Assembly (NCBI RefSeq): GCF_009938225.1
Contig: NZ_AP019658.1
Span: forward strand, 930,001-994,000
Direction of reading: 5' to 3'
DNA length: 64,000 nucleotides
Source: Vibrio ponticus
GTDB lineage: Bacteria > Pseudomonadota > Gammaproteobacteria > Enterobacterales > Vibrionaceae
Part shown: positions 7,691 through 29,700 of the stretch, piece by piece
How the letters are laid out: every line of letters starts with the position of its first letter
Position numbering within the stretch: the stretch's first letter is position 1
Translations under genes and position numbers: made by a program
The notes under the pieces: generated by a model
The model's database searches: none
What the model saw: only the letters and a program-made list of their open reading frames with translations
What the model was told of the DNA's origin: nothing

Positions 7691-10564
7691 TAGATTAGCA
7701 CCTTGAAGACCTTCACCTTCACCCGGTGCCTTGATATCAACCACTGTGTTGTCATTGACGCTGCCTGTATTACCTGCTTGGTCGGTTACCGTCATATCAA
7801 CCGTTAGCTGACCGTCACCAAAGCCTTTAGCCGCTAGGTCAAGGTCTGTAATCGTCACCACGCCATTAACCAGCGTGTAATCACCATCTTGTAGCGTGTA
7901 GCTCTTATCGTTACCGTCGGTGTCTTCACCGCTGATGATGATCAACTCTAGCGTGCCGTTGGATTCAACTTTGCCGCTGAGGTCAACCGCGCTGAGCTCT
8001 TGCTCGTTAATCAAATCGTCTGCAAAGGCGATGCTGTTGGTATCGTTCGCAGGATCGCTGTCGCCATCGACGCCTTCGCCCGGTGCCGTGATATCAACCT
8101 GCGTACTGTCATTGACGCTACCTGTATTACCTGCTTGGTCGGTTACCGTCATATTAACCGTGAGCTGACCATCACCAAAGCCTTTAGCCGCTAGGTCAAG
8201 ATCATTGATGGTCACCACCCCATTAACCAGCGTGTAATCACCGTCTTGCAGCGTGTAGCTCTTATCGTTACCATTAGTGTCTTTACCGCTGATAACAATT
8301 GACTCTAGCGTGCCGTTTTCTTCAACTTTACCGCTAAGGTCAACTGCGCTGAGCTCTTGCTCATTAATCAGCTCGTCCGCAAAGCCGATGCTGTTGGTAT
8401 CGTTCGCTGGATCGCTGTCGCCATCGACGCCTTCACCCGGTGCCGTGATATCAACCTGCGTAGTGTCATTGACGCTACCTGTGTTACCAGCAAGGTCAGT
8501 CACCGTCATATCAACGGTCAACTGACCATCACCAAAGCCTTCAGCGGCTAGGTCAAGGTCATTGATGGTCACCACGCCGTTCTCGAGCGTGTAATCACCA
8601 TCTTGTAGCGTGTAGCTCTTATCATCACCATTGGTGTCTTTACCGCTGATGATGATCGACTCTAGCGTGCCGTTGGCTTCAACTTTACCGCTGAGGTCAA
8701 CCGCGCTGAGCTCTTGCTCGTTAATCAGCTCGTCTGCAAAGGCAATGCTGTTGGTATCGTTCGCTGGATCGCTGTCGCCATCGACACCATCACCCGGTGC
8801 CGTGATATCAACCTGCGTAGTGTCATTGACGCTACCTGTATTACCTGCTTGGTCGGTCACCGTCATATCGACGGTCAGCTCACCATCACCAAGGCCTTTA
8901 GCCGCTAGGTCAAGGTCATTGACGGTCACCACACCGTTCTCGAGCGTGTAGTCGTCAGTAGTTAGCGTGTAGCTTTTATGGTTACCGTCGGTGTCTTTAC
9001 CGCTGATGATGATCGACTCTAGCGTGCCGTTTTCTTCAACTTTACCGCTAAGATCAACCGCGCTGAGCTCTTGCTCATTGATGAGGTCATCTGCAAAGTC
9101 GACGCTGTTGGCATTATTAGCCGCATCACCTTCACCCGGAGCAGTAATATCGACCGTGGCATTGTCGGTAACGCTTCCCGTATTACCAGCCAAGTCAGTT
9201 GCCGTCATAGATACCGACAGTTCGCCATCACCAAAACCTTTTGCTTTTAAGTCAAGATCAGTAACGGTCACAACACCATTAACGAGAGTGTAGTCCTCGT
9301 CTAAAAGGGTATAACTCGTTTCTTTGCCATTGGTATCTTTACCAACGATAATAATCTCGTCTATTTTCCCTGTAGTCTCAACTTTACCTGTCAAGCTTAC
9401 GGCTTTAAGCTCAGTCTCGTTAATCAACCCGTCGATAAATTCTATATTGTTTAAATCATTATCTTTCGGCGTATCACTATCAACACCTTGGCCTGGTGCT
9501 AACGTATCAACAATAAAATCAACTTGGCTAGATACTGGGCCTTGGTTTCCCTGAGGGTCAGTAATTTGAGCTTCATACTGATGGCTACCATCTATGGGTT
9601 TTGTAACAGAAATCAGTATGGTTCCGTTATTTATATCTTCTTTTACAACCGTATGAGTCCCTACTACATTTCCATTATTTTCTCTAAGTTCTATCACATC
9701 ACCAACGCCAGTACCGCGCGGTAATTCAACCATAACGCCAAGGTTTGTGTTAGCCTCATCACTGTTTAGCATGGCATCATCTCCCAACTCTGGGATAAAA
9801 ATGACTGGGGTTTCATGCACGGGAGCTACGGTTACATCCACTGTGATGGTATCAATACCACCTCTTCCATCTGATACTTGCACTGTGAAGCTATCATCAC
9901 CGTTAAAATACTCGTTTGGCGTATAAATCCAGTTACCATTTGCATCTACAGTAATTTCACCATTTAGAGGTAGTTCTTGCGCGATGAATGTAAGTTGGTC
10001 AAAAGAATTTGCATCAGCAGCAATTAACTTACCGCTAACCTGGGTACCTTCATCAGTTGACACTACAAGATCTTGTCCTGTAGGCGAAAAATTAACAGAT
10101 TCAGCGTTGCCAATGACCGATTTCAACTGTGTAAATAGCGTATTGGTTTGTTGCTCAGTCAGACCTAATTGCGCAAAGCCAGTTGTTGTAAATGCGGTTT
10201 CTACTTTTGTTTCATTGAGGGTTCGTGTCACATTAACAGCATCAGTAATACTTGAGCTAAGTTCGGTGCCCGCTGCTGGCGAAAATGCATCATTTAGTTG
10301 TGTCGGGTCTTCTCCGCTCTCTAAACTCGAGATAACTTTTGCGACATCCGCACTGATGTCTCTACCATTGCCATCTGCATCAAACATGGACACTTCTAGT
10401 GAACTTGCCTTCTTTAGATCGGTTATTGCATGGTTGCTAACTATGATTTCGCCAGCTTTCGCAACTTCTCCGGGGATGAGTACACGTAGGTTGCCTAATC
10501 TATCGATCACCATAGATTGACCAAACACTAAATTCCCAAATGCATTCACTACTTCAATTCCCAT
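1..10564 (-). CDS. Giant LapA-like Ig-repeat surface adhesin (3' end outside window)
   Basis: The frame opens at ATG 10564 and stays open to the left edge, giving 3,521 codons; the C-terminus is not visible. Residues 1-90 form a small N-terminal domain. Residues 84-99 read as a Gly-Glu-Asp-Pro-Thr stretch followed by Pro-Ala-Ala-Gly, the layout of the LapG-cleaved retention module of LapA-type adhesins. Roughly residues 165-260 resemble a cadherin/VCBS-like domain (TPNEYFNGDDSFTVQVSDG). One Ig-like domain follows, then five 119-residue repeats, then nineteen Ig-like repeats of 132-137 residues. Such proteins leave by type I secretion, stay threaded in the outer membrane through the N-terminus, and mediate attachment and biofilm formation; that is family knowledge. 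No secretion genes for it are in view. The ribosome site is weak (GGATGG just upstream). The repeat array looks visibly richer in G and C than the N-terminal coding part. Confidence 0.9.
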   Translation of the reverse strand, partial: MGIEVVNAFGNLVFGQSMVIDRLGNLRVLIPGEVAKAGEIIVSNHAITDLKKASSLEVSMFDADGNGRDISADVAKVISSLESGEDPTQLNDAFSPAAGTELSSSITDAVNVTRTLNETKVETAFTTTGFAQLGLTEQQTNTLFTQLKSVIGNAESVNFSPTGQDLVVSTDEGTQVSGKLIAADANSFDQLTFIAQELPLNGEITVDANGNWIYTPNEYFNGDDSFTVQVSDGRGGIDTITVDVTVAPVHETPVIFIPELGDDAMLNSDEANTNLGVMVELPRGTGVGDVIELRENNGNVVGTHTVVKEDINNGTILISVTKPIDGSHQYEAQITDPQGNQGPVSSQVDFIVDTLAPGQGVDSDTPKDNDLNNIEFIDGLINETELKAVSLTGKVETTGKIDEIIIVGKDTNGKETSYTLLDEDYTLVNGVVTVTDLDLKAKGFGDGELSVSMTATDLAGNTGSVTDNATVDITAPGEGDAANNANSVDFADDLINEQELSAVDLSGKVEENGTLESIIISGKDTDGNHKSYTLTTDDYTLENGVVTVNDLDLAAKGLGDGELTVDMTVTDQAGNTGSVNDTTQVDITAPGDGVDGDSDPANDTNSIAFADELINEQELSAVDLSGKVEANGTLESIIISGKDTNGDDKSYTLQDGDYTLENGVVTINDLDLAAEGFGDGQLTVDMTVTDLAGNTGSVNDTTQVDITAPGEGVDGDSDPANDTNSIGFADELINEQELSAVDLSGKVEENGTLESIVISGKDTNGNDKSYTLQDGDYTLVNGVVTINDLDLAAKGFGDGQLTVNMTVTDQAGNTGSVNDSTQVDITAPGEGVDGDSDPANDTNSIAFADDLINEQELSAVDLSGKVESNGTLELIIISGEDTDGNDKSYTLQDGDYTLVNGVVTITDLDLAAKGFGDGQLTVDMTVTDQAGNTGSVNDNTVVDIKAPGEGEGLQGANLGPVVDIKDDTNHDGLISKDELGDDQVQVEVSVNHNELTNGGHVTLTVHGGDEVQLKLVDGKLVTLTDEATIYHYDNGTIAWTESTPAEGGTIKVTATQTDKAGNESAQGSDSAKLDTVAPGDGAGENDSDIGPEVKIISDSDNDGWLNESEVGSADSVNVQVEVNHAELANGGYVTLTVNGGDEVQLKLNDAKDGLVLNNGEAQTTYSYDKTTGTITWTETKPAEGETITVTATQTDQAGNASVQGKDSATVDTTAIGESEGNNGNDLGPKVLISSDTNNDGWLNESQVGSADSVNVQVEVNHDELANGGYVTLTVNGDDEVQLKLNDAKDGLVLGNGNAQTTYSYDKTTGTITWTETKPAEGETITVTATQTDQAGNASAEGRDSATVDTIAVGDGEGTNNADLGPNVEISSDTNNDGWLNESEVGSADSVNVQVEVNHAELANGGYVSLTVNGGDEVKLKLNDAKDGLVLNNGEAQATYSYDKTTGTITWTETKPAEGETITVSATQVDQADNTSAQGQDSATVDTIAVGDGEGINNADLGPKVEITSDSDNDGWLNEIEVGSADSVNVQVEVNHAELANGGHVTLTVNGGDEVQLKLNDAKDGLVLNNGEAQATYSYDKTTGTITWTESKPAEGETITVTATQTDQADNTSAEGQDSATVDTTAVGDGEGINNADLGPKVEITSDSDNDGWLNESEVGSADSVNVKVEVNHAELANGGYVTLNINGQDVELKLNDAKDGLVLNNGESQTTYSYDKTTGTITWTETKPAEGETITVTATQTDQADNTSAQGQDSATVDTIAVGDGEGINNADLGPKVEISSDTDNDGWLNESEVGSADNVKVQVEVNHAELANGGYVTLKVNGEQVELKLNDAQDGLVLGNGDAQATYSYDKTTGTITWAETKPAEGETITVTATQTDQADNTSAEGQDSATVDTTAVGDGEGINNADLGPKVEISSDTNNDGWLNESEVGSADNVNVQVEVNHAELANGGYVTLTINGETVELKLNEDDDALVLGNGNAQATYNYDKTTGTITWTETKPAEGETITVTATQTDQAGNASAQGQDSATVDTIAIGDGEGNNDSDLGPKVLISSDTNNDGWLNESEVGSVDSVNVKVEVNHDELANGGYVTLTINGQDVELKLNDAKDGLVLGNGNAQTTYSYDKTTGTITWTETKPAEGETITVTATQTDQAGNVSAPVTDSATVDTTAIGEGEGNNGSDLGPKVLISSDTNNDGWLNESEVGSADSVNVKVEVNHDELANGGYVTLTINGQDVELKLNDAKDGLVLGNGDAQTIYSYDKTTGTITWTETKPAEGETITVTATQTDQAGNVSAETEDSATVDTIAVGEINPDLTPKVEISSDTNNDGWLNESEVGSADNVNVQVEVNHAELANGGYVSLTVNGGDEVQLKLNDAKDGLVLNNGDAQAIYSYDNTRGTITWTETKPAEGETITVTATQTDQADNTSAEGQDSATVDTIAIGEINPNLAPKVEISSDTNNDGWLNESEVGSADNVKVQVEVNHAELANGGYVTLTINGQDVELKLNEGDDVLVLGNGEAQATYSYDKTTGTITWTETKPAEGETITVTATQTDQADNTSAQGQDSATVDTTAIGEGEGNNGSDLGPKVLISSDTNNDGWLNESEVGSADSVNVKVEVNHDELANGGYVTLTINGETVELKLNEDDDALVLANGDAQTTYSYDKTTGTITWTESKPAEGETITVTATQTDQAGNASAEGRDSATVDTIAVGDGEGINNADLGPNVEITSDTDNDGWLNESEVGSADTVNVKVEVNHDELANGGYVTLTINGGDEVQLKLNDAKDGLVLNNGEAQATYSYDKTTGTITWTETKPAEGETIIVTATQTDQAGNVSAETEDSATVDTIAVGEINPDLTSKVEISSDTNNDGWLNESEVGSADNVKVQVEVNHAELANGGHVTLTVNGGDEVQLKLNDAKEGLVLNNGEAQATYSYDKTTGTITWTETKPAEGETITVTATQTDQAGNVSAETEDSATVDTIAVGEINPDLTPKVEISSDTNNDGWLNESEVGSADNVNVQVEVNHAELANGGYVSLTVNGGDEVQLKLNDAKDGLVLNNGDAQAIYSYDNTRGTITWTETKPAEGETITVTATQTDQADNTSAEGQDSATVDTIAIGEINPDLAPKVEISSDTNNDGWLNESEVGSADSVNVQLEVNHDELANGGYVTLTINGEQVELKLNDAKDGLVLGNGNAQTTYSYDKTTGTITWTETKPAEGAVITVTATQTDQADNTSAQGQDSATVDTIAVGENNPDLAPKVEISSDTDNDGWLNESEVGSADSVNVQVEVNHAELANGGYVTLTINGQDVELKLNDGKDGLVLGNGDAQATYSYNNTTGTITWTETKPSEGATITVTATQTDQADNTSAQGQDSATVDTTAIGEGEGNNGSDLGPKVLISSDTNNDGWLNESEVGSANNVNVQVEVNHAELANGGYVTLTINGEQVDLILNDAKDGLVLGNGDAQTTYSYDKTTGTITWTETKPAEGETITVTATQTDQADNTSAQGQDSATVDTIAVGDGEGINNADL
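7700..9520 (-). repeat. Five 119-residue adhesin repeats
   Basis: The anchor GAGCTCTTGCTC (codons for EQELS) occurs at 7994, 8351, 8708 and 9065, each 357 bp apart, with a diverged fifth copy at 9407 (342 bp). Each unit reads roughly: FADELINEQELSAVDLSGKV, then an ISGKDT strand, then DYTLENGVVT, then a closing VTDQAGNTGS. The closing motif is the usual last strand of bacterial Ig-like domains. This family differs from the EF-hand repeats that follow it in the protein and lies between them and the N-terminal domains. Confidence 0.88.
10268..10279 (-). other. Putative LapG protease site (Pro-Ala-Ala-Gly)
   Basis: Residues 96-99 of the adhesin are P-A-A-G, ten residues after a D-P-T motif and followed by a Ser/Thr-rich stretch. 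LapG-family periplasmic proteases cut [T/P/A]AAG motifs between the two alanines, about 100 residues from the N-terminus in LapA. Position and context match; cleavage itself is inferred. Confidence 0.72.
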
Positions 10565-11119
10565 ATACAACCATCCGAATTAACTTACGCTCAAATAAAA
10601 ATGAACTAAAAGGCTATTAATTTTTCACTCAATTAATAATTTATCATTATCTTTAAACACCATTAACCCCGAACGTAAACATTAGATTTACAAAAACCAA
10701 ATATCACAACATGCCTCGCATTTTAATAAAATTATCAACTATGCATTTTCAGGTTTACTCTCTATCCTGTTGTATTTATAGACAATCAACAACGATCCTT
10801 TCAAATCATCATCGAGCCCATGTCAAGTATCTTTAACAAATAAATCTATATTTCTCAATTTTAGTAAGTAACAACATCTATTACTTAATTAAGGTTTGGT
10901 AAGCTAATTTATAGAATTCTTCCATTTTTTCTCCTATGTTTTTTGAGGTCAAAATATGATTTTTCTTTTGAATAAATATTGCTAATTTTTACTGTTCAAT
11001 ATTCATACAACCATACTCTCCACTAGTATCAGCGTTTAAGTGTGAATCTTGTTTTAAAAAGCATGATTTTCGGTAAAATCCCTCTCTTTGAAATATTAAG
11101 TTACATACTGAAGTGGTAA
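10565..11119. other. Divergent intergenic region, AT-rich
   Basis: This 555-bp gap separates the leftward adhesin gene from the rightward yddG gene and must hold both promoters. It is strongly AT-rich with many A and T runs. I found no convincing operator, RNA gene or small coding frame. AT-richness upstream of large adhesins often goes with H-NS silencing, but that is not shown here. Confidence 0.5.
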
Positions 11120-16614: not shown

Positions 16615-17283
16615 GTGAATAACAACTATTTAGTACTAGGTAATTTATATTGGCGAAGGGATTCCAAAACACTATTTAAACCATTAGATGATGGCAGTCT
16701 AAAAGAAGAGAATGTTCTAACCCAAAAACAGTACGATTTAATTTGTTGTCTTCTGGATGCCTCACCGAAAACCCTTTCCAAAGAGGACATCATTGAAAAA
16801 GTTTGGGATAGTCGACATATCTCTCCTGAGAGTCTGCCACAATTGATTATCCGAACCAGACAAGCACTGGGTGATAGCAAAAAGACCGTATTGATAAATG
16901 AACCCGGTATCGGCTATAAACTCAACTTTTCTACTCGTGGTAAGCAAAGTCGAGATGACAATTCAGCCGTTGGCGTAACGACACCAATAAGTTCTCATTT
17001 GCAAACAAGCCATCTGAGTAAAAATGCGGTACTAACGCCAGAGCAAAGCACTAGAAAACTCAACTTTGTTAAACTGTTAGTCATAGCAATCCTACTGATC
17101 GCTGTTATTTTCCAATGCTTGTATTTATTGAGCGCCGTTCGTTATAAAAATGAATTCAAGAGTATTGGGCACAACACTCCTTACCCATTTGTACAAACTA
17201 AAGATGAACAAACAATCGTAACTATTGATAATTATGAATGTATATATCAAAAAGATCGAAAACTACTTAGTTGCCAAAAGTAA
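16615..17283 (+). CDS. ToxR/CadC-like membrane-bound transcriptional regulator
   Basis: The 222-residue protein uses a GTG start. Residues 1-107 form an OmpR-type winged helix (EEN-LT-KQYDLICCLLDAS, then the recognition region LPQLIIRTRQALGDS and the wing GIGYKLNF). A Ser/Thr-rich linker leads to one membrane segment at 151-174. Only about 48 residues are periplasmic, with two cysteines (209 and 220) that could form a disulfide. This is the layout of ToxR, TcpP and VtrA, which bind DNA from the inner membrane in response to periplasmic signals such as bile. The periplasmic part is short and not recognisably ToxR itself, so it is a paralogue of unknown regulon. It overlaps the next gene by 50 nt, as in vtrA/vtrC. 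Confidence 0.85.
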   Translation: MNNNYLVLGNLYWRRDSKTLFKPLDDGSLKEENVLTQKQYDLICCLLDASPKTLSKEDIIEKVWDSRHISPESLPQLIIRTRQALGDSKKTVLINEPGIGYKLNFSTRGKQSRDDNSAVGVTTPISSHLQTSHLSKNAVLTPEQSTRKLNFVKLLVIAILLIAVIFQCLYLLSAVRYKNEFKSIGHNTPYPFVQTKDEQTIVTIDNYECIYQKDRKLLSCQK

Positions 17284-17647
17284 ATTTCTTGTTGCAACAT
17301 TGGTAATTGTCAATTTGTCGCTATTTTTCTTTATATCTCAACAAAAAACAGAATGGGTCGGATCAATTGAAACACCTATCTATCATTGGTCGACGTTCAC
17401 TCAGCAACGAATGAATACTATTGATATGAGTGTGACCTATACAGAGCATGGTATCGAGAAAGGTTTTTCCAACAGCTTTGATTATGAACACATCGCGAGT
17501 AATGAATACATCTCATACAATTCAGACATGAAGATTAAGTTCTACCGTCAACGAGTCTATGCGCTTGATGATGAATGCTATTTGGTTTTTAGAGGTAGGA
17601 CATTAATGCAAATTCACAATGTTTCTATGCGCTGTTTGTTGCTTTAA
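17234..17647 (+). CDS. Small membrane partner of the ToxR-like regulator (ToxS/VtrC-like)
   Basis: The 137-residue protein has a short cytoplasmic N-terminus, one membrane segment (about residues 18-36) and a periplasmic domain of roughly 100 residues. I do not recognise its sequence. Its role is inferred from layout: it starts inside the upstream membrane regulator gene (50-nt overlap) and has the topology of ToxS, TcpH and VtrC, which bind and stabilise the periplasmic domain of their regulator or form a joint ligand pocket. I chose ATG 17234; an in-frame TTG nine bases upstream is possible. Two cysteines near the C-terminus could form a disulfide. Translation is probably coupled to the upstream gene. 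Confidence 0.68.
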   Translation: MNVYIKKIENYLVAKSKFLVATLVIVNLSLFFFISQQKTEWVGSIETPIYHWSTFTQQRMNTIDMSVTYTEHGIEKGFSNSFDYEHIASNEYISYNSDMKIKFYRQRVYALDDECYLVFRGRTLMQIHNVSMRCLLL

Positions 17648-19174: not shown

Positions 19175-21115
19175 TTAAAGCCGCACTGTCGCGGTTTTAG
19201 TCTGCTCTACTCGCTTGTCCTTTACCTCATACACATTTTTAATCTGCCCGAGAATATTGCGATCGTGCGTGACAACTAAAACAATCGCATCTTTAAGTTC
19301 ATTGCGTATATATTTGAGCATCGAAACGACATCGCCCACAGAAAGATTAATAAAGGCTTCATCAAGCACAACTAAACGTTTATGTTGATCGAGTGACATG
19401 TAAAGTAACAGCTTACGCTTCTGACCCGTCGACATCTCAATTGTCGAGATATCTCTTTGAAAAATAAACTCATAATCCAGCGGTATATCTACGAATATTT
19501 GTGAGCAAATTTGTGCAATTCTGTTCGGGTCTCGAATACCACGGATATAGAAATTGGAATAAATGGACCCGCGAATGAAGTCACTGCTTGGATCAAGATA
19601 TGCGACAAAGCGTGAGAATACACTCCGGTCTAAATCGATACCATTGTAGAAATCATTGAACTGAACATTACCTGTGTATTCCGTGTGGTTCTGCAATATC
19701 GTCGCCATTAAAGTCGATTTACCGCTACCAATATTGCCACAGAAAGCGTAAATATTGCCTTTTGTTAAAGTTAAATTTACCCCTTCTAACAGCAGTCGTT
19801 CTTCCACCGAAACATTGACGTTCTTTAACTCGATTCTTGAGATGGTATCGATAGAAAGCCCTTTTTTCATCAAACGCGCTTCAAGTTTATCGAACACATC
19901 TTTAAATGCTGTATTCAAATGGTAAGTAGAAGTCAAAATAAAGAACGTTTTGGTAACCATGCTAATCATGCTTTGGGCTGCGCGACCATTAAGGATCAGC
20001 AAAGCTATCAAAACATTAAATATCGCCGCATCGGCTTTCGATGCAAAAAAGATGGTAGAAAACAATACAAAGCTTGCTAGAAACGAACTAAGGCGAACAA
20101 ACTCATCCCAATTAAAGTTAAAACTTGCGATGCCATGATCACTCTCAAACGACTTTTTACACACTAATTCAAAGTTGTTTAGCGTCGCATCCGTATCCAA
20201 GAATCGCAGCTGTTTATTGTTTCTATAGTAAGAAATACGCTCGTTAAGCAAATCCTGTTGGGCGGATTCATGTTCAATGTACAGGGTGTAATTTCGATAA
20301 CGTAGATACACTGAAATTGCGATGATAGTGAGGTAGAAAACCAGTAACAACAACGCATATTGACCAATAAAGACAAACAGTAAGGCAACGACTAGAGAAA
20401 AGTTTACAAAATCAATGATGAGTGAGGAAAGATTATCCCAAATAACCTTGCGGTTTGATTCAACCATTCTGACTTTGGTCAACACATCTTTGTGACGAAA
20501 GAATGGTAATACACTCAATATGTAACGCTCAATCTTTAGTGCATTTTTATCAACCGCGCTCAAGTGCTTCAATTTGACGAAATGTTTGAGCGAATATTCT
20601 ATCCCCCACAACAAAATGAATGCGGTAGTAACATAAAACAGCGTTGTAATCAGCTCATTAAAGATCAGGCGAGTATTGAACAGGTTGGCGTAAAATGCCG
20701 GGATCAAAATAAATGGCACTGCCGCCACCAGCAAAAAATTAATCCGGGGGTAGAGCGAGAAAATCGTTTCTATAAATTCACGACTGCTCAGTTTTTTGGG
20801 GTACTCGCCGACATGGGCGATTTCTTTTCCTACTAGCTCCGCAGTATCTATCTGCTTTTTATCCTCGCCAACAAATGCATTGCCAACACGATGAATAAAG
20901 TTCGGTTCCCCCTCAAGCGTAACAAAAGAATCTGGCAAGTCATTAAAGTCCGCGACCGTAACGCGCTCAATATGATAGTCAAACAAAGTGTCTTGAAACA
21001 ATGCATCAAGATGAGATAGAAACGAATCTAGGTTTTCGTATTCCAGCCGTTCAAAAGCCTTCCAATCAAAATTTGCTTTCGAGTTTACGATCAATTTTTT
21101 TACCGTCGCTTTCAT
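19175..21115 (-). CDS. Type I secretion ABC exporter (SiiF-like)
   Basis: The 646-residue protein has a cytosolic N-terminal region (1-120) without the Cys/His pattern of a C39 peptidase. About six membrane segments lie between 126 and 380, and a nucleotide-binding domain occupies about 428-640. Walker A is GNIGSGKST (460-468), Walker B is LVVLDEA with Glu586, and the H-loop His is 617. Two motifs are unusual: the signature is MSTGQ (561-565) rather than LSGGQ, and the Q-loop region reads AYLDPSSDF with no Gln. It would energise export of the giant adhesin with the HlyD- and TolC-like proteins encoded upstream, the role of SiiF in SPI4. It is the last gene of the cluster, 171 bp after the EAL gene, a gap containing a hairpin, so it may be separately tuned. 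Confidence 0.88.
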   Translation of the reverse strand: MKATVKKLIVNSKANFDWKAFERLEYENLDSFLSHLDALFQDTLFDYHIERVTVADFNDLPDSFVTLEGEPNFIHRVGNAFVGEDKKQIDTAELVGKEIAHVGEYPKKLSSREFIETIFSLYPRINFLLVAAVPFILIPAFYANLFNTRLIFNELITTLFYVTTAFILLWGIEYSLKHFVKLKHLSAVDKNALKIERYILSVLPFFRHKDVLTKVRMVESNRKVIWDNLSSLIIDFVNFSLVVALLFVFIGQYALLLLVFYLTIIAISVYLRYRNYTLYIEHESAQQDLLNERISYYRNNKQLRFLDTDATLNNFELVCKKSFESDHGIASFNFNWDEFVRLSSFLASFVLFSTIFFASKADAAIFNVLIALLILNGRAAQSMISMVTKTFFILTSTYHLNTAFKDVFDKLEARLMKKGLSIDTISRIELKNVNVSVEERLLLEGVNLTLTKGNIYAFCGNIGSGKSTLMATILQNHTEYTGNVQFNDFYNGIDLDRSVFSRFVAYLDPSSDFIRGSIYSNFYIRGIRDPNRIAQICSQIFVDIPLDYEFIFQRDISTIEMSTGQKRKLLLYMSLDQHKRLVVLDEAFINLSVGDVVSMLKYIRNELKDAIVLVVTHDRNILGQIKNVYEVKDKRVEQTKTATVRL

Positions 21116-21286: not shown

Positions 21287-23158
21287 TTACGCCTGTTCTA
21301 GTGCTTCTACCTTTAAGTATTCAACCTCAAAGTCGTCCGATGCCACTGGCTTACCAAAATGGTAACCTTGGAACAGCTTGCAACCTACTTCGATTAGTTT
21401 CTCAACTTGGTCTTGGTTTTCAACACCTTCAGCTTGCACTTGGATATTAAGTTGCTCTGCCATCATCATCACTGATTTCACTAGGCTGTAGCTTGCTTCA
21501 TCGCCTTCAGCAATGCCTTTAATAATGTCGCGATCCACTTTAAGTCGGTCGATTTCGAAATCTCGCAGGTTAACTAGAGAGGTATATCCCGTACCAAAAT
21601 CATCAATGAAGGTTTTGAGACCTAGATTATGCAGCTGACGTACTTTATCGCGAGCCGCTTCAGAGTTGGCAGAAATGGTATCTTCTGTAATCTCAATCGC
21701 AATAGAGCCAGGGGTCACACCAGACTGCTCAAGCGTCGTTTCGATATCATTGATAAAACCAGGTGAAAGAAGAAGGTCACTTGTTGCATTGATTGATGCC
21801 ACCCACTCACGATCCCATACTCCTTGTTTCTGCCACTTAGAAACTTGGCGAATCGTTGAATGAACGACCCAAAGTTCGAGATCGACCGACAGCCCTTCTT
21901 GCTTGGCTAACTTGAACAGCTCGAAGTTAGAAATCGGTCCACGAACAGGATCAACCCAACGTATAAACGACTCTGCGCCAATCAAACTGCCATCTGCATT
22001 AGTCTGCGGTTGATACACCAAAGAAAAACCACCTTCATGAATCGCATTCTTCAATGATTCAGCAATTGGCAGTGCAGTAGCCACTCGAATGTCGTGAAGA
22101 ATCTCAGCGACTTTGTTTAATTCATGATTAGTTTGTTCAATCACATTAGTGGTCATCTCTTGTGAACGTACAATGTCTTGCGACATTTCAACCACGCGCC
22201 CAGCCATCCCATCAACCGCATCAGTGACCTGAATAGCATCACGGCTCATTCTTTCCGCGTGCACTGATAAGATCTGCTCCATGTTTTGGTTAGCGATCGC
22301 CATCGACTCCATGCGCGAAGACATACTACTCAAGGTTTGCGCAGCTTCAGTCACTAATGTATTCATGTTTTCCGAATAACTAGAAAGGATCAGTTCCATC
22401 TTCTGATTGGTGCGTAACTGCTCTTCTCGCATCAAATCAATCTGCTCGGCTTGGTTTACTGCAATGCGATTGCTCTGCTCCAAACTTTGAGTAAATTGTT
22501 TCACTACCGTTGAACCTGAATTTGACTCAAGTAAGGTATGAAGATCCGTCCAGACTTTCTCTTTCGTTTGAACTAATTGCAAAGTGTCTTGCAAAGAGCC
22601 ATGTACACGCTCAAAGTTTTGATTGATGATCTCATGATCGCTTTCGATGATTTCGTTCGCGCGAACCAATTGTGCATCATCCGTCGCATGAACATCAAAA
22701 AACGAGTTGAGGTAGTTAGCAGCAAAAAGGATAGAAACTGAAGTACCAACACCTAAGATCGAAGTCAGAAACGCCAGTGACATGGAGTCTAGCGCCAAGC
22801 CAATTGATTCAAGTAGCAGAGCCATTCGTTCAGCGAAGTCACCTTCAGCCGCCAAGCCGGATGCAATACCCGAGATCATATTGGCAAGACCAACGAAAGT
22901 ACCAATTAGACCAAACGATACCGCCAGTGAAGAGGCAAGTGTTACCTGTGTACGAAAGTACTCGATATTGGCAAACCGATGGTGACGGAAAAAGAAAGCC
23001 ACACAAAATACTGTAATTGGATAAATATAACTAATCGCAATTAAGGCGGTTATCTCAGGAGACAACTCAAAACACTGGACGATAAAACTTCTTGGTCCTT
23101 CAAAATAGTACGCCAATGCTGGAATAGTTATATACACCAACAAACCAAAGATATACAT
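21287..23158 (-). CDS. MotA/TolQ-like proton channel fused to an EAL c-di-GMP phosphodiesterase
   Basis: The 623-residue protein has four membrane segments at about 3-19, 35-57, 72-98 and 124-150. The third carries SFGLIGTFVGLANMI, typical of the MotA/TolQ/ExbB channel family. Residues 160-360 are hydrophilic and helical (coiled-coil-like tail). Residues 365-612 are an EAL domain. Its catalytic set appears complete: E396 (ESF in place of EAL), N457, E489 and E492 (EITED), D519-D520 (DDFGTGYTSL), K540, E577 (EGVE) and Q597 (FQGY). It probably hydrolyses c-di-GMP. Its start overlaps the stop of the ExbD/MotB-like gene by one base (TAATG), so the two are co-translated. By position it corresponds to SiiB of SPI4, which as I recall has no EAL domain. 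I infer that it couples proton flow and c-di-GMP to adhesin secretion or release. An alternative is a c-di-GMP enzyme merely anchored by the channel. Confidence 0.88.
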   Translation of the reverse strand: MYIFGLLVYITIPALAYYFEGPRSFIVQCFELSPEITALIAISYIYPITVFCVAFFFRHHRFANIEYFRTQVTLASSLAVSFGLIGTFVGLANMISGIASGLAAEGDFAERMALLLESIGLALDSMSLAFLTSILGVGTSVSILFAANYLNSFFDVHATDDAQLVRANEIIESDHEIINQNFERVHGSLQDTLQLVQTKEKVWTDLHTLLESNSGSTVVKQFTQSLEQSNRIAVNQAEQIDLMREEQLRTNQKMELILSSYSENMNTLVTEAAQTLSSMSSRMESMAIANQNMEQILSVHAERMSRDAIQVTDAVDGMAGRVVEMSQDIVRSQEMTTNVIEQTNHELNKVAEILHDIRVATALPIAESLKNAIHEGGFSLVYQPQTNADGSLIGAESFIRWVDPVRGPISNFELFKLAKQEGLSVDLELWVVHSTIRQVSKWQKQGVWDREWVASINATSDLLLSPGFINDIETTLEQSGVTPGSIAIEITEDTISANSEAARDKVRQLHNLGLKTFIDDFGTGYTSLVNLRDFEIDRLKVDRDIIKGIAEGDEASYSLVKSVMMMAEQLNIQVQAEGVENQDQVEKLIEVGCKLFQGYHFGKPVASDDFEVEYLKVEALEQA

Positions 23159-23601
23159 TAATTAGTCTCCCACCTAACTTTTGATATTACTGATTTACTT
23201 TCTACAATTTCTGTCGTTATTTTCATTGCTTCTGGAAGGTCCAGAATAGCTAAGAACCTCATGATATTAACCGCACTTTTCCTCTCCGAATCACGGCTTT
23301 CTATAATTACTTTTACGTTTTCAACGTCGTTTAATTGTGCTCTTATCTGTTCGACAAGTTGTGGCTCTAACTTGAAGTTCACCACATATTTAATCTCTTT
23401 ATTCTCTAAGTCAGAACCAAATATTTCTCGATACACTATTGGGGTATAGGCTTGGTCTTCTACTTCGACTACCGCTTCCATTTTTGCAGCAGATGTAATA
23501 GCAGCAGACGTCTGAATCAAAAAGAAAATACACACTAAAACCATCACAATGAGTGATGATGCCAATGCATCAACAAACGGGGCGAGAGAGTCATCATTCA
23601 T
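23158..23601 (-). CDS. ExbD/MotB-like single-TM stator subunit with channel Asp
   Basis: The 147-residue protein has one N-terminal membrane segment at about 12-31 immediately preceded by Asp11 (PFVDALASSLIVMVLVCIFF). This is the position of the proton-carrying Asp of MotB, ExbD and TolR. The rest is periplasmic and I do not recognise a peptidoglycan-binding motif. I chose ATG 23601 rather than an upstream in-frame ATG (23685) because it puts the membrane segment and Asp at the usual distance from the N-terminus and overlaps the previous gene by just 8 nt (ATGAATGA). It should pair with the following MotA/TolQ-like EAL fusion protein. It is probably the functional counterpart of SiiA in SPI4. 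Confidence 0.72.
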   Translation of the reverse strand: MNDDSLAPFVDALASSLIVMVLVCIFFLIQTSAAITSAAKMEAVVEVEDQAYTPIVYREIFGSDLENKEIKYVVNFKLEPQLVEQIRAQLNDVENVKVIIESRDSERKSAVNIMRFLAILDLPEAMKITTEIVESKSVISKVRWETN

Positions 23602-24040
23602 TATCAGTCTCCTGTATTGTTTCGCTAACCAAAGGCGATAAGTTGATGTCGATAAAGCAGGTATTAAACATTTCTGACTCTTCAATGGTGAACATCGGGG
23701 CTACAGGTACAGAGTCTGCAAAATACTGGGTCATCTTGATGTAGTTAAATGTGCCAACCTCTTCCATTTGGCGCTGCGTTGAATTGAAGCCGTAGTTACA
23801 GCCATTCTGATAAGAGATAACCCTCTGATCGATATCAATAACTTCGGATTGCATTATGACTTCGCGAATTAGATTCGCATCCACATAACTACTTTCCATT
23901 ACATAGCGATATTTCTCATCATTGATTTTCACTAAACCGGTCTCTGGCATAATTGCCTGAACAAATGCAATCAACGTAGCAATTACCACCAAAACGATAA
24001 CCGCTAAGGCTGATGAAATAGCAGAAACAAATCCAATCAT
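23594..24040 (-). CDS. Second single-TM periplasmic protein of the secretion cluster
   Basis: The 148-residue protein has one membrane segment at about 10-30 and a periplasmic domain of about 115 residues containing two cysteines (81 and 128) that could bond. Unlike the next gene product, its membrane segment (ALAVIVLVVIATLIAFVQAI) has no acidic residue, so it is unlikely to carry protons itself. I do not recognise its family. It begins directly after the HlyD-like gene's stop and overlaps the ExbD-like gene by 8 nt, so it is surely part of the same operon. It may be a divergent MotB/ExbD-type or SiiA-type partner, a sensor, or a lid of the channel. Confidence 0.65.
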   Translation of the reverse strand: MIGFVSAISSALAVIVLVVIATLIAFVQAIMPETGLVKINDEKYRYVMESSYVDANLIREVIMQSEVIDIDQRVISYQNGCNYGFNSTQRQMEEVGTFNYIKMTQYFADSVPVAPMFTIEESEMFNTCFIDINLSPLVSETIQETDNE

Positions 24041-25279
24041 CTACCACACCTCAAACTTAATATCATTTGGTAATACACTTAAGATAAACTCCATTACGTT
24101 AATTTGATCATCAATAACGAAGACTTGTACATCGATGCCCAAATTGAGGGACAAGTCTAGAAATTCTTGGTCCGGTTTTATGGTGACACGATAATAACGT
24201 TTACCATTTTTATTTTGTTCATCGTAGGCAATTGAGTCAGAACTTAATTCAACTATGGTACCGTTAAATATCTCATTAAAACCGGGAGAATTGATTTTTA
24301 GTTTCACTTCGCGACCGATACTTAAAAAATGACGATATCGAGAGTCAAACTTTGCGGTGACCTCCTGAGATGCGCCCTCTTTTTTAAGTACGAACATCTG
24401 CGCCGCCTCTTGGACGAAAGTACCAACCGCCAAACCATCCGTAAGCTCTAATATACTGCCGTTTATTGGTGACCGGATGACTGACTTTTTCTTTTTCTCA
24501 GCCAGGAGCTGCTTCTGGTAGCTCTTTTCTGTAATTTCTGACTCTAACGACGTTATTTTCTCATCCAATGTGAGTAGTCGCTCTGAGCGACGCATTTGAA
24601 ATACCATCAGTTTGTCGTCGAGGTTTTTTTTCGCTTCAAGCTCAGACATCTTGAATGAAACTAACTCGCTATTTAGATCTGAAATTTCGGTTTCTAGATC
24701 ATAAAAGCGAATTGTCTCGCCTTTTCCTCGGCGTAGTGCGCCTTTTTTCTTGGTGAGAATTTTGCGTTTTTTCAGCAGCTCATCGGCTTTCTTTTTGCGC
24801 TCCAATGCCAAATCAACCAGGTATTTCTGCTCTTGTAAGTAGTCTTCATAAAAACTCAGGATATAAAGACCACCAGCCCCTGCTGCATGAGATTCTTGAT
24901 CACAACCGTAGTCAGAATGAGCAATTGGCGAAGCTGAAAAACGGTCACTGACTAAAAAACAGCGTTCGTCTTTATGTTGCGTAAGCAATCTAGAATTCTG
25001 CTCAAGCTCAACGGAGATTTGCTGCAATTGGTACTCATCAACCAAGTTTCGATAGCGCAGCATTGCCTGCCCAACTTGAACTTTGTCGCCTTGAGAAACC
25101 ATTAAATCAACAATGTAGCTACTTGAGGGCGCTTTAAGAGAAACGTTACTCTCTTTGATCCCAGTTAGACCAGAGCCTGGGGCAACCACTTCAACTTGTT
25201 TGAACAACAAGATATAGCCTAAAAGACAGGCAATCAGAGCACCGACCGCCAGCTTGTGTCTCTTTTGAATTAGTATCAT
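24041..25279 (-). CDS. HlyD-like periplasmic adaptor of the type I system (SiiD-like)
   Basis: The 412-residue protein has a short cytosolic N-terminus and one membrane segment (about 9-27). The first lipoyl half-motif lies around 49-77 (APSSSYIVDLMVSQGDKVQV), a long charged coiled coil covers about 150-275, and the second half-motif covers about 277-312 (VIRSPINGSILELTDGLAVG). A beta-barrel region follows. This is the membrane fusion protein layout, bridging the ABC exporter and TolC-like channel. An insert near residues 105-135 holds two cysteines. It starts three bases after the TolC-like gene's stop and abuts the next small gene, indicating one operon. Confidence 0.87.
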   Translation of the reverse strand: MILIQKRHKLAVGALIACLLGYILLFKQVEVVAPGSGLTGIKESNVSLKAPSSSYIVDLMVSQGDKVQVGQAMLRYRNLVDEYQLQQISVELEQNSRLLTQHKDERCFLVSDRFSASPIAHSDYGCDQESHAAGAGGLYILSFYEDYLQEQKYLVDLALERKKKADELLKKRKILTKKKGALRRGKGETIRFYDLETEISDLNSELVSFKMSELEAKKNLDDKLMVFQMRRSERLLTLDEKITSLESEITEKSYQKQLLAEKKKKSVIRSPINGSILELTDGLAVGTFVQEAAQMFVLKKEGASQEVTAKFDSRYRHFLSIGREVKLKINSPGFNEIFNGTIVELSSDSIAYDEQNKNGKRYYRVTIKPDQEFLDLSLNLGIDVQVFVIDDQINVMEFILSVLPNDIKFEVW

Positions 25280-25282
25280 GTT

Positions 25283-26650
25283 TTAGTAAATCTTTTGTGA
25301 CTTGAGCTCCATTAGTGAGTAGAGCTGGTCATAAAGGTTTAACTCCATGTTGAGTAGTGCAATTTCAGACTGATTGAGGGAAGAAATACTTTCCGCAATA
25401 TCAAGGTAGGTCACTTTGTCAGTGAAGATTTCATTCTTCTGGTTTTCAATAAGTTCTCGGTTGATACGTAGTTGCTCGACCAGATTGTCGCGCTTCGCTA
25501 GGGTATTTTCATAGTCCAGTGTCATCGCTTCGATCTTTGCCAGCAACTTTTGCACATCATTGTCATAGCGTTCTTTCTGCGCTTTAAACAGTTTTACTGA
25601 CGCTTCTTGATCCGCGGCAGTTGCGTGGTTGTAGAGATCAACCGTGACCGTAACTCCAACATAAGACTCATTGGTATCGCCAGGCAAAAATGAATCTTCC
25701 CCGCCATATAAAGCAACGCGGGTCTCGTTAACCAAGTCGACTTTAACGCGCTCTCGTTGCGCTTTAGCACTCTTTAAAGCTGCCTTAACTAAATAGTCCG
25801 TAGAACGCAGTGAATAGTTGTCTTGAACTAATGTATCGCTTTCAAACTGAGTCACATCTGCATCAAGAACCGAGAGTACTTTGTTATAGTCAAGACCGAT
25901 TTTTTCAGTTTGCTCTTTGCTGTCAAACACCACACCGGTCTCTACTCGTAGATCACGAAAATACTTATCAATGTTGGAGACCACCGCAAATACTTGTTCT
26001 TCAAAGCGAGACTTTGTTAGCTCCACTTCCATCGCGTCTGACTGGGTTGAGACCCCTTCTTTCGTCGCATTCAACTGTTTCTTATAGAAGCTTTCTAATT
26101 CAATGCGAATGAGGTCTGATTGACGTTCGAAATGACGGGTTAATTCAATGCGAGTTAAGTACCTCAGTACGGTGTAGTAAATCTCTAACTCTTTACTTTT
26201 AAGGTTCATTTCTCCTGACAAACGATTGTTCTCACTCGCGTCAATACGTTCACCGACACTGGAACCCCACACTTTAGTACTGAGTTTAAAAATACCTTCC
26301 CCCGTCCCATCAGGGTCTGGGCGAGGATCGCCGTAGTACTCTTTAAGTTCAGAAGAAAGTGTCGCACTGGGGTAATAAAACTTCTCTTCCTTGTCTTGCA
26401 AAATTTCGCTCGATTCGAGCTCAAATTGCAGTGCTTTATACTCATGAGATACCGCTAGTGCTTGATCTAAGATCTCGACAAAGCCTAAATCATAGGGTCG
26501 AACTTGCGAAGGCGTTCCACTCTGAGAAGCGGAAGCTTTAGTATTGACTGGTAGTGTATCGACCAGCTCATCTGCGAACACAGAAAGTGGCATTAGAGAG
26601 AGTGTCGCCGACATTGCCACGACAAGTTTTGTCTTCTGAAAAAAGTTCAT
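25283..26650 (-). CDS. TolC-like outer membrane channel of the type I system (SiiC-like)
   Basis: The protein is 455 residues from ATG 26650. That start gives a proper signal peptide (MNFFQKTKLVVAMSATLSLM ending near Ala-Asp-Glu), whereas the longer in-frame start at 26761 would overlap the adhesin's 3' end and bury the signal. The mature part has two related long helical halves of the outer membrane efflux protein family, ending in the helical stretch TYLDIAESISSLNQSEIALL. It should form the trimeric outer-membrane duct for the giant adhesin. It lies 67 bp after the adhesin's stop and 3 bp before the HlyD-like gene. Confidence 0.86.
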   Translation of the reverse strand: MNFFQKTKLVVAMSATLSLMPLSVFADELVDTLPVNTKASASQSGTPSQVRPYDLGFVEILDQALAVSHEYKALQFELESSEILQDKEEKFYYPSATLSSELKEYYGDPRPDPDGTGEGIFKLSTKVWGSSVGERIDASENNRLSGEMNLKSKELEIYYTVLRYLTRIELTRHFERQSDLIRIELESFYKKQLNATKEGVSTQSDAMEVELTKSRFEEQVFAVVSNIDKYFRDLRVETGVVFDSKEQTEKIGLDYNKVLSVLDADVTQFESDTLVQDNYSLRSTDYLVKAALKSAKAQRERVKVDLVNETRVALYGGEDSFLPGDTNESYVGVTVTVDLYNHATAADQEASVKLFKAQKERYDNDVQKLLAKIEAMTLDYENTLAKRDNLVEQLRINRELIENQKNEIFTDKVTYLDIAESISSLNQSEIALLNMELNLYDQLYSLMELKSQKIY

Positions 26651-26717
26651 AGTGTTTCTTATCAATCCTTGAGTAAAACTAGCGAGCGTGTCACCGCTCG
26701 CTACCTCGATCAGAAAT

Positions 26718-29700
26718 TTAGATAGTGAAGTCGTCCACTTTCGTTTCGTTGCCCGCAACATCGGATATAACGATGTCTACCGTTTGCCCACCCGTTATGT
26801 CGCTAACCGACCAACTACCGTCGGCAACCGTCGCTTCGCCCAACTCATTGCCTTGCTGGTCAAATATTTCAACGATATCTCCATCGTCTGTCGCTAGACC
26901 AGACAACGTTGTATCACTGTAACCAATACTATCGGGTATAATAGTTGGAGCTTGAGTATCTAGGTGGATAGTTCCTGAGTCGTTGCGTGTCACTTCACCA
27001 TTTTGACTTTCGGTTAATGTGTAGTCGTTATCTCCTTCTGCCAAGGTCAGCAATTCACCGTTCTCAGCACTATCTTTGGATAAATCGATTTTCCACTCAC
27101 CGTAGGAATCGACCTGCGTAGAAATCTTGTCTCCTGCAATCTCAAGAGTGATCTCTGAATAGGGTTCAGCTCGACCTTCGAAAGTTGGCTGTTCCTCACT
27201 AGTGACACCGTCTGTTCTATACTCGCCTGTATCGGTTGAACGCGTTAGCTCATTATTAATAAATGGCATTTGTTCGCGTGAGTCGTAAGTTAACTCGAAC
27301 TCTTTGTCAGATGAGTTTCCTGCTTCATCTGTCGCCGTAAGTTTGACATCTACCGTCTCACCATCGACTAATTCATCCGTGAAGTTGAACTCCCATCGAC
27401 CGTTGCTATCAACAGTGACATCAATAGCATCAGCGTCACCAATTTGAATGGTTAGTGAAACATCTCTATCGTTAAGCACTCCAGACAACTTGCCACTCTC
27501 GGTATTCCACAGAACATCATCGGTAAGGTAGTCGATATCACCTTCGATTTTTTCCATCGCGATAACAGGGGCGAAGGTATCGATTAGCATATCTTCTTCA
27601 TAGTGGGTATCATTGCCCCACTTATCTTTGATAATCACATCGATTTCATATAAACCATCATCAAACGTCCGATCAGGGTTAAAAGTCCACGTTCCATCAT
27701 CGGTAACTTCCACTGTCTCAATAATGCTTGGATTTAATCCGTTGCCAGATATGATAATAGTCACTTGAGCACCAACCTCTGCACCAAACCCCGAAATAAC
27801 CGGTTTACTTTGACCGATATGTACCTTGTTATCCTCTGTATAGGTAACGCCAGTATCTAGGTCTGTCACTACAAACTCTGTAGTTAAATGAGTGCCTGTA
27901 GCAGTCGTTTTTTCATTAACGCTGACGATAAATTCAGTTTTAATATCATTGCCTGCATCATCAGTCGGGGTGTTACCTGCTTTATCCTTGTAAACGAGCT
28001 CTATTTTATACTGACTTGCGACACCATCAGTGTGAGGGAGTAGATCTCTGAGCTTAATTTCAAACACATCACCACTCTTAAGTTCATCAGTGCTATAGTT
28101 TTTGCTCCACGTCCCATCTAAGCTGGAAATCTTGACATAGAACGCACGTATTCCCTCTCCATCTTGACTGTTTTTATCCACTCGAACTGAGAAATTTGGA
28201 TCATTGGTATAGAAAATTTCTAAGTCAGTATCCTCATGCTTGTCGTCGCTCTTATTGCGATAGGAAACAACCCCATTTTCATAGATGCTTATTTGTGGGT
28301 CTGGCATTTTGTCGAGCTTAGTATCAACAGTAAACTTAACGACTCTGTCATCCGCTGTGTTCCCCGCTTTATCACTCGCTTTGATAGTCATCTCATAGCT
28401 ACCGTCAGCGTAGATATGCCCCTCATCACGCACATAGGTAAAAGCAGTACTTTCTGCATAGAAGGTTTCCGTATGCGTGTAGCCGTCTGGCCCCGTGATA
28501 GTTATTTCAATTAAGTTATCTTTCTCGGTATAGATCTTAACCTCAGGATTTGGATTACTAGTATTGTGAGTCCAATGCCAGCCATCTTCCTCGATAAAGT
28601 CAGCTGTTAACGTAATACCCGAATCAAAAATTACCGTCGAATTTTCCGTAACGACATGCCCCACATCATCAAGTGCCTGAATCATAAATGGATATTCAAG
28701 ATCTGGCATAGGGTCGGTAGTAATCGACCACGTACCATCTTGTTCAACAATCGTCTTATATTCCACACCATGAATCGTAATGCGAATGGTATCGCCAGCT
28801 GTAGCTCCCTCACCTTGGAAATAAATCTCTTTGGCGTCATTGGCATCATTGACTACATAAATTGGATTGCCATTTTCATCTACACCGGTTTGTTCAACAG
28901 TGTTGTCTTTATCTGTCTTAGCAAGAATCTTCCAAGTACCAATTTCTGGTTCGGAGGTTCTGATGCTTAAGTCCATCTCTATTGGGTCACCAGACAGATT
29001 ACCGGCTTTATCTTGTGAGGTTACTGCGACGATAAAGGTACCATCAGCTTGGTCGCCTAATAGTTGACCCGGTTCTGGTCGGTAACTCCATGATCCGCTA
29101 TCACTGACCTGAGTCGACACAACGATAAAGGCATTGCCGCTCTTCTCATATTTTCCACTCGTTTGGTTATAGACAGACTGGTAAACCTTCAAATAGATAT
29201 CTGCACCCGGTTCACCTTCACCCGTTATAACAGGATTCGCTTCCATGGTTTTGTTATCGGTCGCCACTGCATCATCAAACACTTCAATATCACCAGTGTC
29301 TGACGCACCATCCAATCCGATAGTGACCGTCGGTGGTGTTTTGTCGTAAACAATTTCTTGAGTCACTTTCTGATCGTCCGTACTCAAGTGGTTACCCGCT
29401 TCATCAGTTACGGTAAACTCAACCGTATATTTACCTTCTAGATACCCTCCATTTGGGTCAACGGGTAACAAGAAGGAGATATTGCTGCTGTTGGTTTGGT
29501 CCACCTCCACGTCCAGCGGTCCGCCAACAATATTCCCCTCTTCATCGTAGAGCGTTGCGGTAATCGTGTTATCTGCTTCGGTTAGGCATTTAAAGGTTAA
29601 GTAACCTTCTTCACCATCGACTGAGGTGAGATCTTTAGTAACAAAGTCGGTGGATTCCCCACTATCGTTTTCCAAGCTAACTTGGAAGTTGATTGCGGTT

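Follow-up and report, generated by a model that had tools for sequence, protein, structure and literature searches.

The window analysed here, a stretch of 64,000 nucleotides from Vibrio ponticus (contig NZ_AP019658.1, positions 930,001 to 994,000), encodes on its minus strand (21287–23158) a protein of 623 residues, without internal stop, in which a MotA/ZorA/ExbB-like channel is joined through a helical tail to an EAL domain. The gene lies among those for a giant immunoglobulin-like (Ig) repeat adhesin and its type I secretion apparatus. Because the same join was found in nine genomes of two families, it was confirmed to be neither chance nor an assembly fault. Sequence or structural models established the fusion, its conservation across nine genomes, the operon, a SiiA-like partner protein whose membrane aspartate is invariant, and purifying selection acting on the EAL domain. 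We read the locus as a type I adhesin system whose SiiB-like motor channel once gained a C-terminal EAL domain acting as a cyclic di-GMP (c-di-GMP) input on adhesin retention without LapG, and on balance the evidence leans towards this interpretation.

Domain organization and occurrence of the fusion

The channel module (residues 1–160; 22679–23158, minus strand) was recognized by the motifs GLIGTFxGL and MSxAFLTSxxGV, by hydropathy, with four hydrophobic stretches in residues 1–151, and by invariant columns. In an alignment of 21 channel sequences 22 columns were invariant, including V80, S81, G83, L84, G86, T87, F88, G90 and L91. No Pfam match to MotA_ExbB was obtained in the fusion. PADLOC returned ZorA (E 3.9e-4, residues 39–332), a weak match lying partly on the tail, and a profile built from the 21 channel rows matched the solved ZorA chain 8vvn_C (E 3.2e-5), again partly through the tail; the other, weaker matches of this profile were unrelated coiled coils. 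An AlphaFold2 model (22-row alignment) was confident for the N-terminal helical module, with a predicted local distance difference test score (pLDDT) of 72–92 by block. The 50 structural matches listed for the full-length model spanned residues 359–620 only, so that they concern the EAL side and not the channel fold; no ZorA or MotA chain was among them.

The tail (residues 161–362; 22073–22678, minus strand) was modelled as helices with low pLDDT. It contains two conserved stretches specific to the fusion, 201–225 and 331–364, in which nine of 25 and eight of 34 columns, respectively, are invariant across the nine fusions; only three of the 105 columns between them are. The second stretch runs directly into the EAL domain and may act like a signalling helix. 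A classical heptad coiled coil was rejected for the tail: the periodicity of hydrophobic residues over 224–362 peaked at 3.6 (a value reached by 0.35% of 2000 shuffles) and not at 3.5 (7.5%), six periods having been tried.

The EAL domain (residues 365–612; 21323–22066, minus strand) was matched by Pfam at 367–604 with an E value of 6.1e-62, and its barrel was modelled confidently (blocks 371–610, pLDDT 70–97). A preliminary description, made from the window alone, had proposed a four-helix proton-channel module, a helical tail of about 200 residues and an EAL domain with E396, N457, E489, E492, D519, D520, K540, E577 and Q597, within an adhesin secretion operon; the hydropathy, the ZorA profile matches and the models agree with the first two, the nine residues occupy exactly these positions and, as set out below, the operon is present.

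For the distribution, residues 1–360 were searched against 329 Vibrionaceae genomes (E ≤ 1e-5). Matches were obtained in 17: eight fusions (the window, Vibrio rhodolitus and loci L027–L032), eight channels without an EAL domain (loci L033–L040) and one long ZorA-like protein (genome G141) with neither an EAL domain nor such an operon. A draw of 394 genomes across the order gave nine matches, namely four already known, a ninth fusion (locus L051 in genome G472, from a family other than Vibrionaceae) and four weak ones (G376, G543, G604 and G661), whose fetched stretches contained no EAL domain; three of these four have HlyD-like genes as neighbours. The other eight genomes of the ninth fusion's family contained no fusion. 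The class draw (369 genomes) yielded one weak match besides the window and the phylum draw (398 genomes) one new, weak match, each a long ZorA-like protein without an EAL domain; the three long proteins were so classed by eye and by the absence of a match to the reference set. Among the genomes sampled, the fusion is rare and occurs in a single order. No relatives of it were found on plasmids at the DNA level, while at the protein level the channel part matched 57 plasmid records, of which four were opened; 22 pattern matches on viral contigs gave no confirmed relative. Weak MotA-like relatives of about 416–483 residues in other families of the order (L052, L054 and L055) lie a few kilobases (kb) from HlyD-like genes and an open reading frame (ORF) of 1090–1287 residues.

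In all nine fusion loci a TolC gene, an HlyD gene, a gene for a 148-residue protein, a SiiA-like gene and an Ig-repeat ORF adjoin the fusion, and Pfam confirmed this neighbourhood for L027 and L051. The ABC transporter gene is adjacent in five loci and 22–35 kb away, on the adhesin side, in the other four, where the adhesin probably fills the gap. Every fusion found thus stands beside an Ig-repeat adhesin and type I genes, and fusions scattered away from adhesin loci did not occur. Loci of the same family without an EAL domain are found in Vibrionaceae and on plasmids of Escherichia, Salmonella, Enterobacter and Photobacterium; their channel proteins end after about 265–365 residues. In seven of the eight such Vibrionaceae loci the stretch includes the adhesin and type I genes; the contig that bears the eighth measures 4.8 kb. 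The four plasmid loci opened carry channel, SiiA-like, HlyD, 148-residue-type and ABC genes with TolC or its place; three of them adjoin an Ig-like adhesin, and in the remaining one it lies about 6 kb upstream. On an Escherichia fergusonii IncX1 plasmid, an EAL-only protein of 287 residues (L057:6413–7273) is encoded in the vicinity of a SiiAB-like type I locus and an Ig-like adhesin ORF, and may represent another, separate connection between c-di-GMP and such loci. At fusion loci L029 (11966–12912) and L031 (7769–9003) HlyD is in two frames.

This context bears on a different reading of the protein, as a phage-defence motor of the ZorA kind that carries a c-di-GMP effector and stands beside an adhesin by chance. 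Such a motor would account for the two ZorA matches given above and for the long tail, which ZorA shares (according to part of PMC11890865). It is made highly improbable by the adhesin and type I genes that accompany all nine fusions and seven of the eight Vibrionaceae loci without an EAL domain, by a partner protein that matches SiiA above MotB- and OmpA-like domains, and by the lack of an EAL domain in the three long ZorA-like proteins met in the searches; a defence system was rejected on gene context.

In a tree of the five shared proteins (1412 columns) a long branch with support 100 set the nine fusions apart from the rest; the alignment had gaps for HlyD of L029 and L031 (where it occupies two frames), for TolC and HlyD of L034 and for the SiiA-like gene of L037. 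A tree built from EAL domains split the nine fused ones from 31 others, also with support 100. Most simply, an older motor without an EAL domain acquired the domain in a single event.

Active site and proposed role of the fused EAL domain

A section of PMC5301497 gives Asp161, the second aspartate of the DDFGTG motif, and Asp183 as the ligands of the second metal (M2) in PA3825. Their equivalents in the fusion are D520 and D542, likewise 22 positions apart. The window, V. rhodolitus and L051 retain the pair; each of the other six fusions has lost both residues, as N520/A542 in L027–L030, which also have E577D, and as N520/S542 in L031–L032. These six retain E396, R400, N457, E489, E492, D519, K540 and Q597; L051 retains the two aspartates and has R400S and E492D. 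Apart from the motif leucine, the full active site is present in two of the nine (the window and V. rhodolitus), and eight keep E396, R400, N457, E489, D519, K540 and Q597. The control set consisted of the 30 best-scoring of 78 EAL matches from three genomes plus two chosen receptors, minus one self match; 29 of these 31 domains were canonical at all 12 positions, in a set that leans to canonical EALs by construction, the exceptions being L073 and the LapD-like gene of the window genome. Judged from these residues, hydrolysis is doubtful in six fusions, uncertain in one and likely in two. It is unlikely to be the conserved job of the fused domain, because both M2 ligands are missing from six of the nine and two different signature residues are changed in L051. 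The 'intact-looking phosphodiesterase' first proposed holds for the window and V. rhodolitus only.

The EAL domain is nevertheless under purifying selection, being as constrained as the channel. Nonsynonymous differences per site (pN) in the EAL domain and in the channel were 0.102 and 0.097 for the window and V. rhodolitus, 0.075 and 0.075 for L031/L032, 0.121 and 0.127 for L027/L028, and 0.100 and 0.118 for L028/L029; the tail gave 0.126–0.250 across the same pairs. Synonymous sites were saturated (synonymous differences per site 0.73–0.93), and a ratio of nonsynonymous to synonymous rates is therefore not given. Since the last three pairs lack the M2 ligands, selection there would guard something other than hydrolysis. 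A neutral EAL passenger, or a join produced by an error of assembly or frame, would be in keeping with the poorly conserved tail (pN 0.250 between the window and V. rhodolitus), but the strong constraint and the recurrence of the join leave this reading with a negligible probability, the artefact being refuted by the nine-genome conservation.

If the signal ran in reverse, the state of the motor or adhesin would switch an active EAL phosphodiesterase, and c-di-GMP near the membrane would fall when the adhesin is engaged or released. This is conceivable but rather unlikely: both M2 ligands are missing from six of the nine proteins, four of which have E577D as well and four of which fall in one well supported clade, and the D-to-N change is one used in the same motif of MorA entry 4rnf, titled 'mutant phosphodiesterase', which has N in its DDFGTG-type motif. 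For the window's own protein a signal from motor to c-di-GMP stays plausible. Less probable again is an EAL domain that ignores c-di-GMP and serves as a protein contact, a tether between the motor and some partner such as the ABC transporter. Conservation of the domain despite F or Y at 398 in all nine fusions and other signature changes in seven would suit such a role, as would the interaction of SiiB with SiiF mentioned in PMC12607715 (in the portion available). A mere scaffold would, however, have no need of the seven residues kept in eight of the nine proteins, and the contact cannot be essential, as EAL-less loci secrete the same kind of adhesin. We favour c-di-GMP binding as the conserved role of the fused domain, with hydrolysis optional.

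Several points weigh against binding as the input to a SiiB-like motor. The signature is E-S-F and not E-A-L, residue 398 being F or Y throughout; a bare protein-contact surface would be constrained too; the window's domain keeps the full catalytic set, so that hydrolysis stays in play there; and R400S, in the ExLxR motif, may impair c-di-GMP binding in L051. The helical tail through which the signal would pass was modelled at low confidence (block pLDDT 40–63 over residues 171–362). The channel is called SiiB-like from its partner and gene context. Clade placement within the fusion group has supports of 74–89, which leaves the count of two independent M2 losses uncertain.

Independence from LapD and LapG, also proposed at the outset, stands in part. 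The adhesin of the operon (8437 residues) contains no LapG-type [TPA]AAG site. Pfam showed only the EAL domain in the fusion, with no HAMP, GGDEF or LapD output domain, and the LapD model matched its EAL end alone at 42.7 bits (cut-off 1020). On the other side, LapG is present in all nine fusion genomes, and in the window genome it adjoins a LapD-like gene, whose best match of 292 bits is below the family cut-off, on the same contig about 0.7 Mb from the fusion locus. Control of the 8437-residue adhesin by LapD/LapG is not favoured, given the missing site, although LapG accompanies every fusion. The EAL domain of the LapD-like protein (L072; G000:C2:224377–226284) has N at 520, A at the position of R400 and S at that of E577 and keeps D542. 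A second giant Ig/cadherin-repeat ORF of at least 3523 residues runs off the left edge of the window (2–10570, minus strand) and has a PAAG LapG-type site at residue 98; cleavage of PAAG and AAAG sites in V. cholerae is reported in part of PMC6890996. In this genome, then, two adhesins appear to be controlled in two different ways.

In the favoured mechanism, five channel and two partner subunits would form a 5:2 motor in which each of the five tails carries an EAL domain at its end, and the partner would dock on peptidoglycan. The adhesin would be stalled by its N-terminal module, and flow or arrest of protons would decide between retention in the TolC conduit and release. Binding of c-di-GMP would alter the packing of the EAL domains and, through the tail, change the state of the motor, so that c-di-GMP and the proton motive force would be read together. 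In the window and V. rhodolitus the domain may in addition hydrolyse c-di-GMP and so reset the switch; in the six M2-less relatives it would most likely only bind. By analogy with Lap systems, high c-di-GMP would be expected to favour retention. EAL activity depends on dimerization (stated in an excerpt of PMC5301497), and five domains could not all pair; either pairs would form between motors or one domain would stay single. A more specific version is a stator ring with a built-in receptor, in which c-di-GMP on up to five tail EAL domains gates proton flow and locks or frees the adhesin without LapG, the domain having been fused once and having then changed by drift from an enzyme into a receptor, in one lineage at least and probably in two; this version we hold tentatively, as falling just short of an even chance.

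No protein joining SiiA/SiiB or MotA/ExbB/TolQ to an EAL domain was found reported in open-licence PubMed Central papers, which is weak evidence of absence, and the terms EAL, fusion, c-di-GMP and type I secretion do not occur in the main text of a study of MotAB and its relatives (PMC12505986). A natural fusion of a motor with a c-di-GMP domain hints at what SiiAB-type motors may obey when they hold or release giant adhesins; if the reading is true, c-di-GMP would be coupled directly to an ion-driven motor by covalent fusion. The nine genomes, M2-intact and M2-less, offer a natural set for separating binding from hydrolysis, and the motor question becomes testable in a non-pathogen.

Genes of the operon

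The operon, on the minus strand, is transcribed in the order adhesin, TolC, HlyD, 148-residue protein, 147-residue partner, fusion, ABC transporter. The adhesin (26718–52031) has Big_13/Big_6 repeats, preceded by a short N-terminal module that looks folded, a charged stretch of coiled coil and a linker rich in serine; judged by eye, the module is present in all nine printed relatives (of 13) whose start falls inside the stretch. The TolC-type outer membrane protein (25283–26761; OEP, E 1.1e-16), with a SiiC-like role, probably starts at 26650, ahead of a signal-peptide-like stretch. An HlyD-type membrane fusion protein of 412 residues (24041–25279; TIGR01843, E 6.3e-24) and the type I ABC transporter of 646 residues (19175–21115; ABC_tran, E 2.9e-14; TIGR03375, E 8.8e-17) would play SiiD- and SiiF-like roles. 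The HlyD stop codon abuts the start of the 148-residue gene, which overlaps the 147-residue gene by 8 nucleotides; the start of the fusion overlaps the stop of the latter by 1 nucleotide. Because their ends abut or overlap, these genes are probably translated together. A gap of 171 nucleotides separates the fusion from the ABC transporter gene.

The SiiA/MotB-like partner (23158–23601) has D11, as the preliminary description had it; this residue lies in the one transmembrane helix and is invariant in 20 of 20 aligned partners. Its predicted periplasmic domain best matched solved SiiA, above MotB- and OmpA-like domains, and in the model has the SiiA-type peptidoglycan-binding fold. A motor of the SiiAB type would be expected to bind peptidoglycan through the SiiA arginines 162 and 167. 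With a 28-residue N-terminal extension the partner gave no PADLOC match at E ≤ 0.1. The 148-residue accessory protein (23594–24040) has a single transmembrane stretch and invariant C81 and C128, and is present in all 21 loci aligned; no PDB sequence match at E ≤ 1 and no Pfam match at E ≤ 0.01 were obtained. It is encoded between HlyD and the motor genes, and no known family was found for it.

On the upstream side of the ABC gene, an ORF on the plus strand (16615–17283) encodes a Trans_reg_C DNA-binding domain and a transmembrane stretch, a protein which we take to be ToxR-like in layout; it is overlapped by a small ORF (17225–17647, plus strand). At Rfam gathering scores no c-di-GMP riboswitch was found in the window.

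Comparison with known systems

On weak profile matches, the fusion appears to resemble ZorA/ZorB of Zorya in combining a MotA-like channel with a long cytoplasmic helical tail; the tails of the five ZorA subunits bundle into one rod (PMC11890865, in part). It differs in the EAL domain at the tail end, the SiiA-like partner and the adhesin secretion context, with no defence gene among the operon products (adhesin, TolC, HlyD, ABC and two small membrane proteins). The resemblance to ZorA first suggested appears to extend to the layout of channel and tail, but gene context and partner are SiiAB-like.

With LapD/LapG/LapA it would share an EAL domain that binds c-di-GMP and thereby governs whether a giant adhesin is retained, and the LapD-like EAL of the window genome likewise has N at 520. 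The supposed output, in contrast, is an ion motor and not a protease, and the adhesin lacks the LapG-type site. The EAL-less loci share the channel, SiiA-like partner, 148-residue-type protein, TolC and HlyD, with the ABC gene and an Ig-like adhesin in most of those examined, and differ in a channel protein that stops at about 265–365 residues without an EAL domain.

The nearest well-described counterpart is SiiA–SiiF of Salmonella pathogenicity island 4 (SPI4), which secretes SiiE. Retention of SiiE requires the proton channel that SiiA and SiiB form, and is lowered when the proton motive force collapses (from the text available of PMC6272769); the mechanism is stated to be unclear in a passage of PMC12607715. 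The passages searched in these two reviews mention no EAL domain on SiiB. Differences of the present system are the EAL domain on the channel subunit, the extra 148-residue membrane protein, another gene order and a partner of 147 residues against 210 for SiiA (a length taken from part of PMC12607715). The kinship with SiiA/SiiB that had been suspected is upheld by the SiiA-like match of the partner and by the adhesin and type I context of all nine fusions: both systems unite type I genes with a pair of the Mot/Exb/Tol type and a giant adhesin that has Ig repeats and an N-terminal coiled coil, and in both the partner has a membrane aspartate and, as predicted here, a SiiA-like periplasmic fold.
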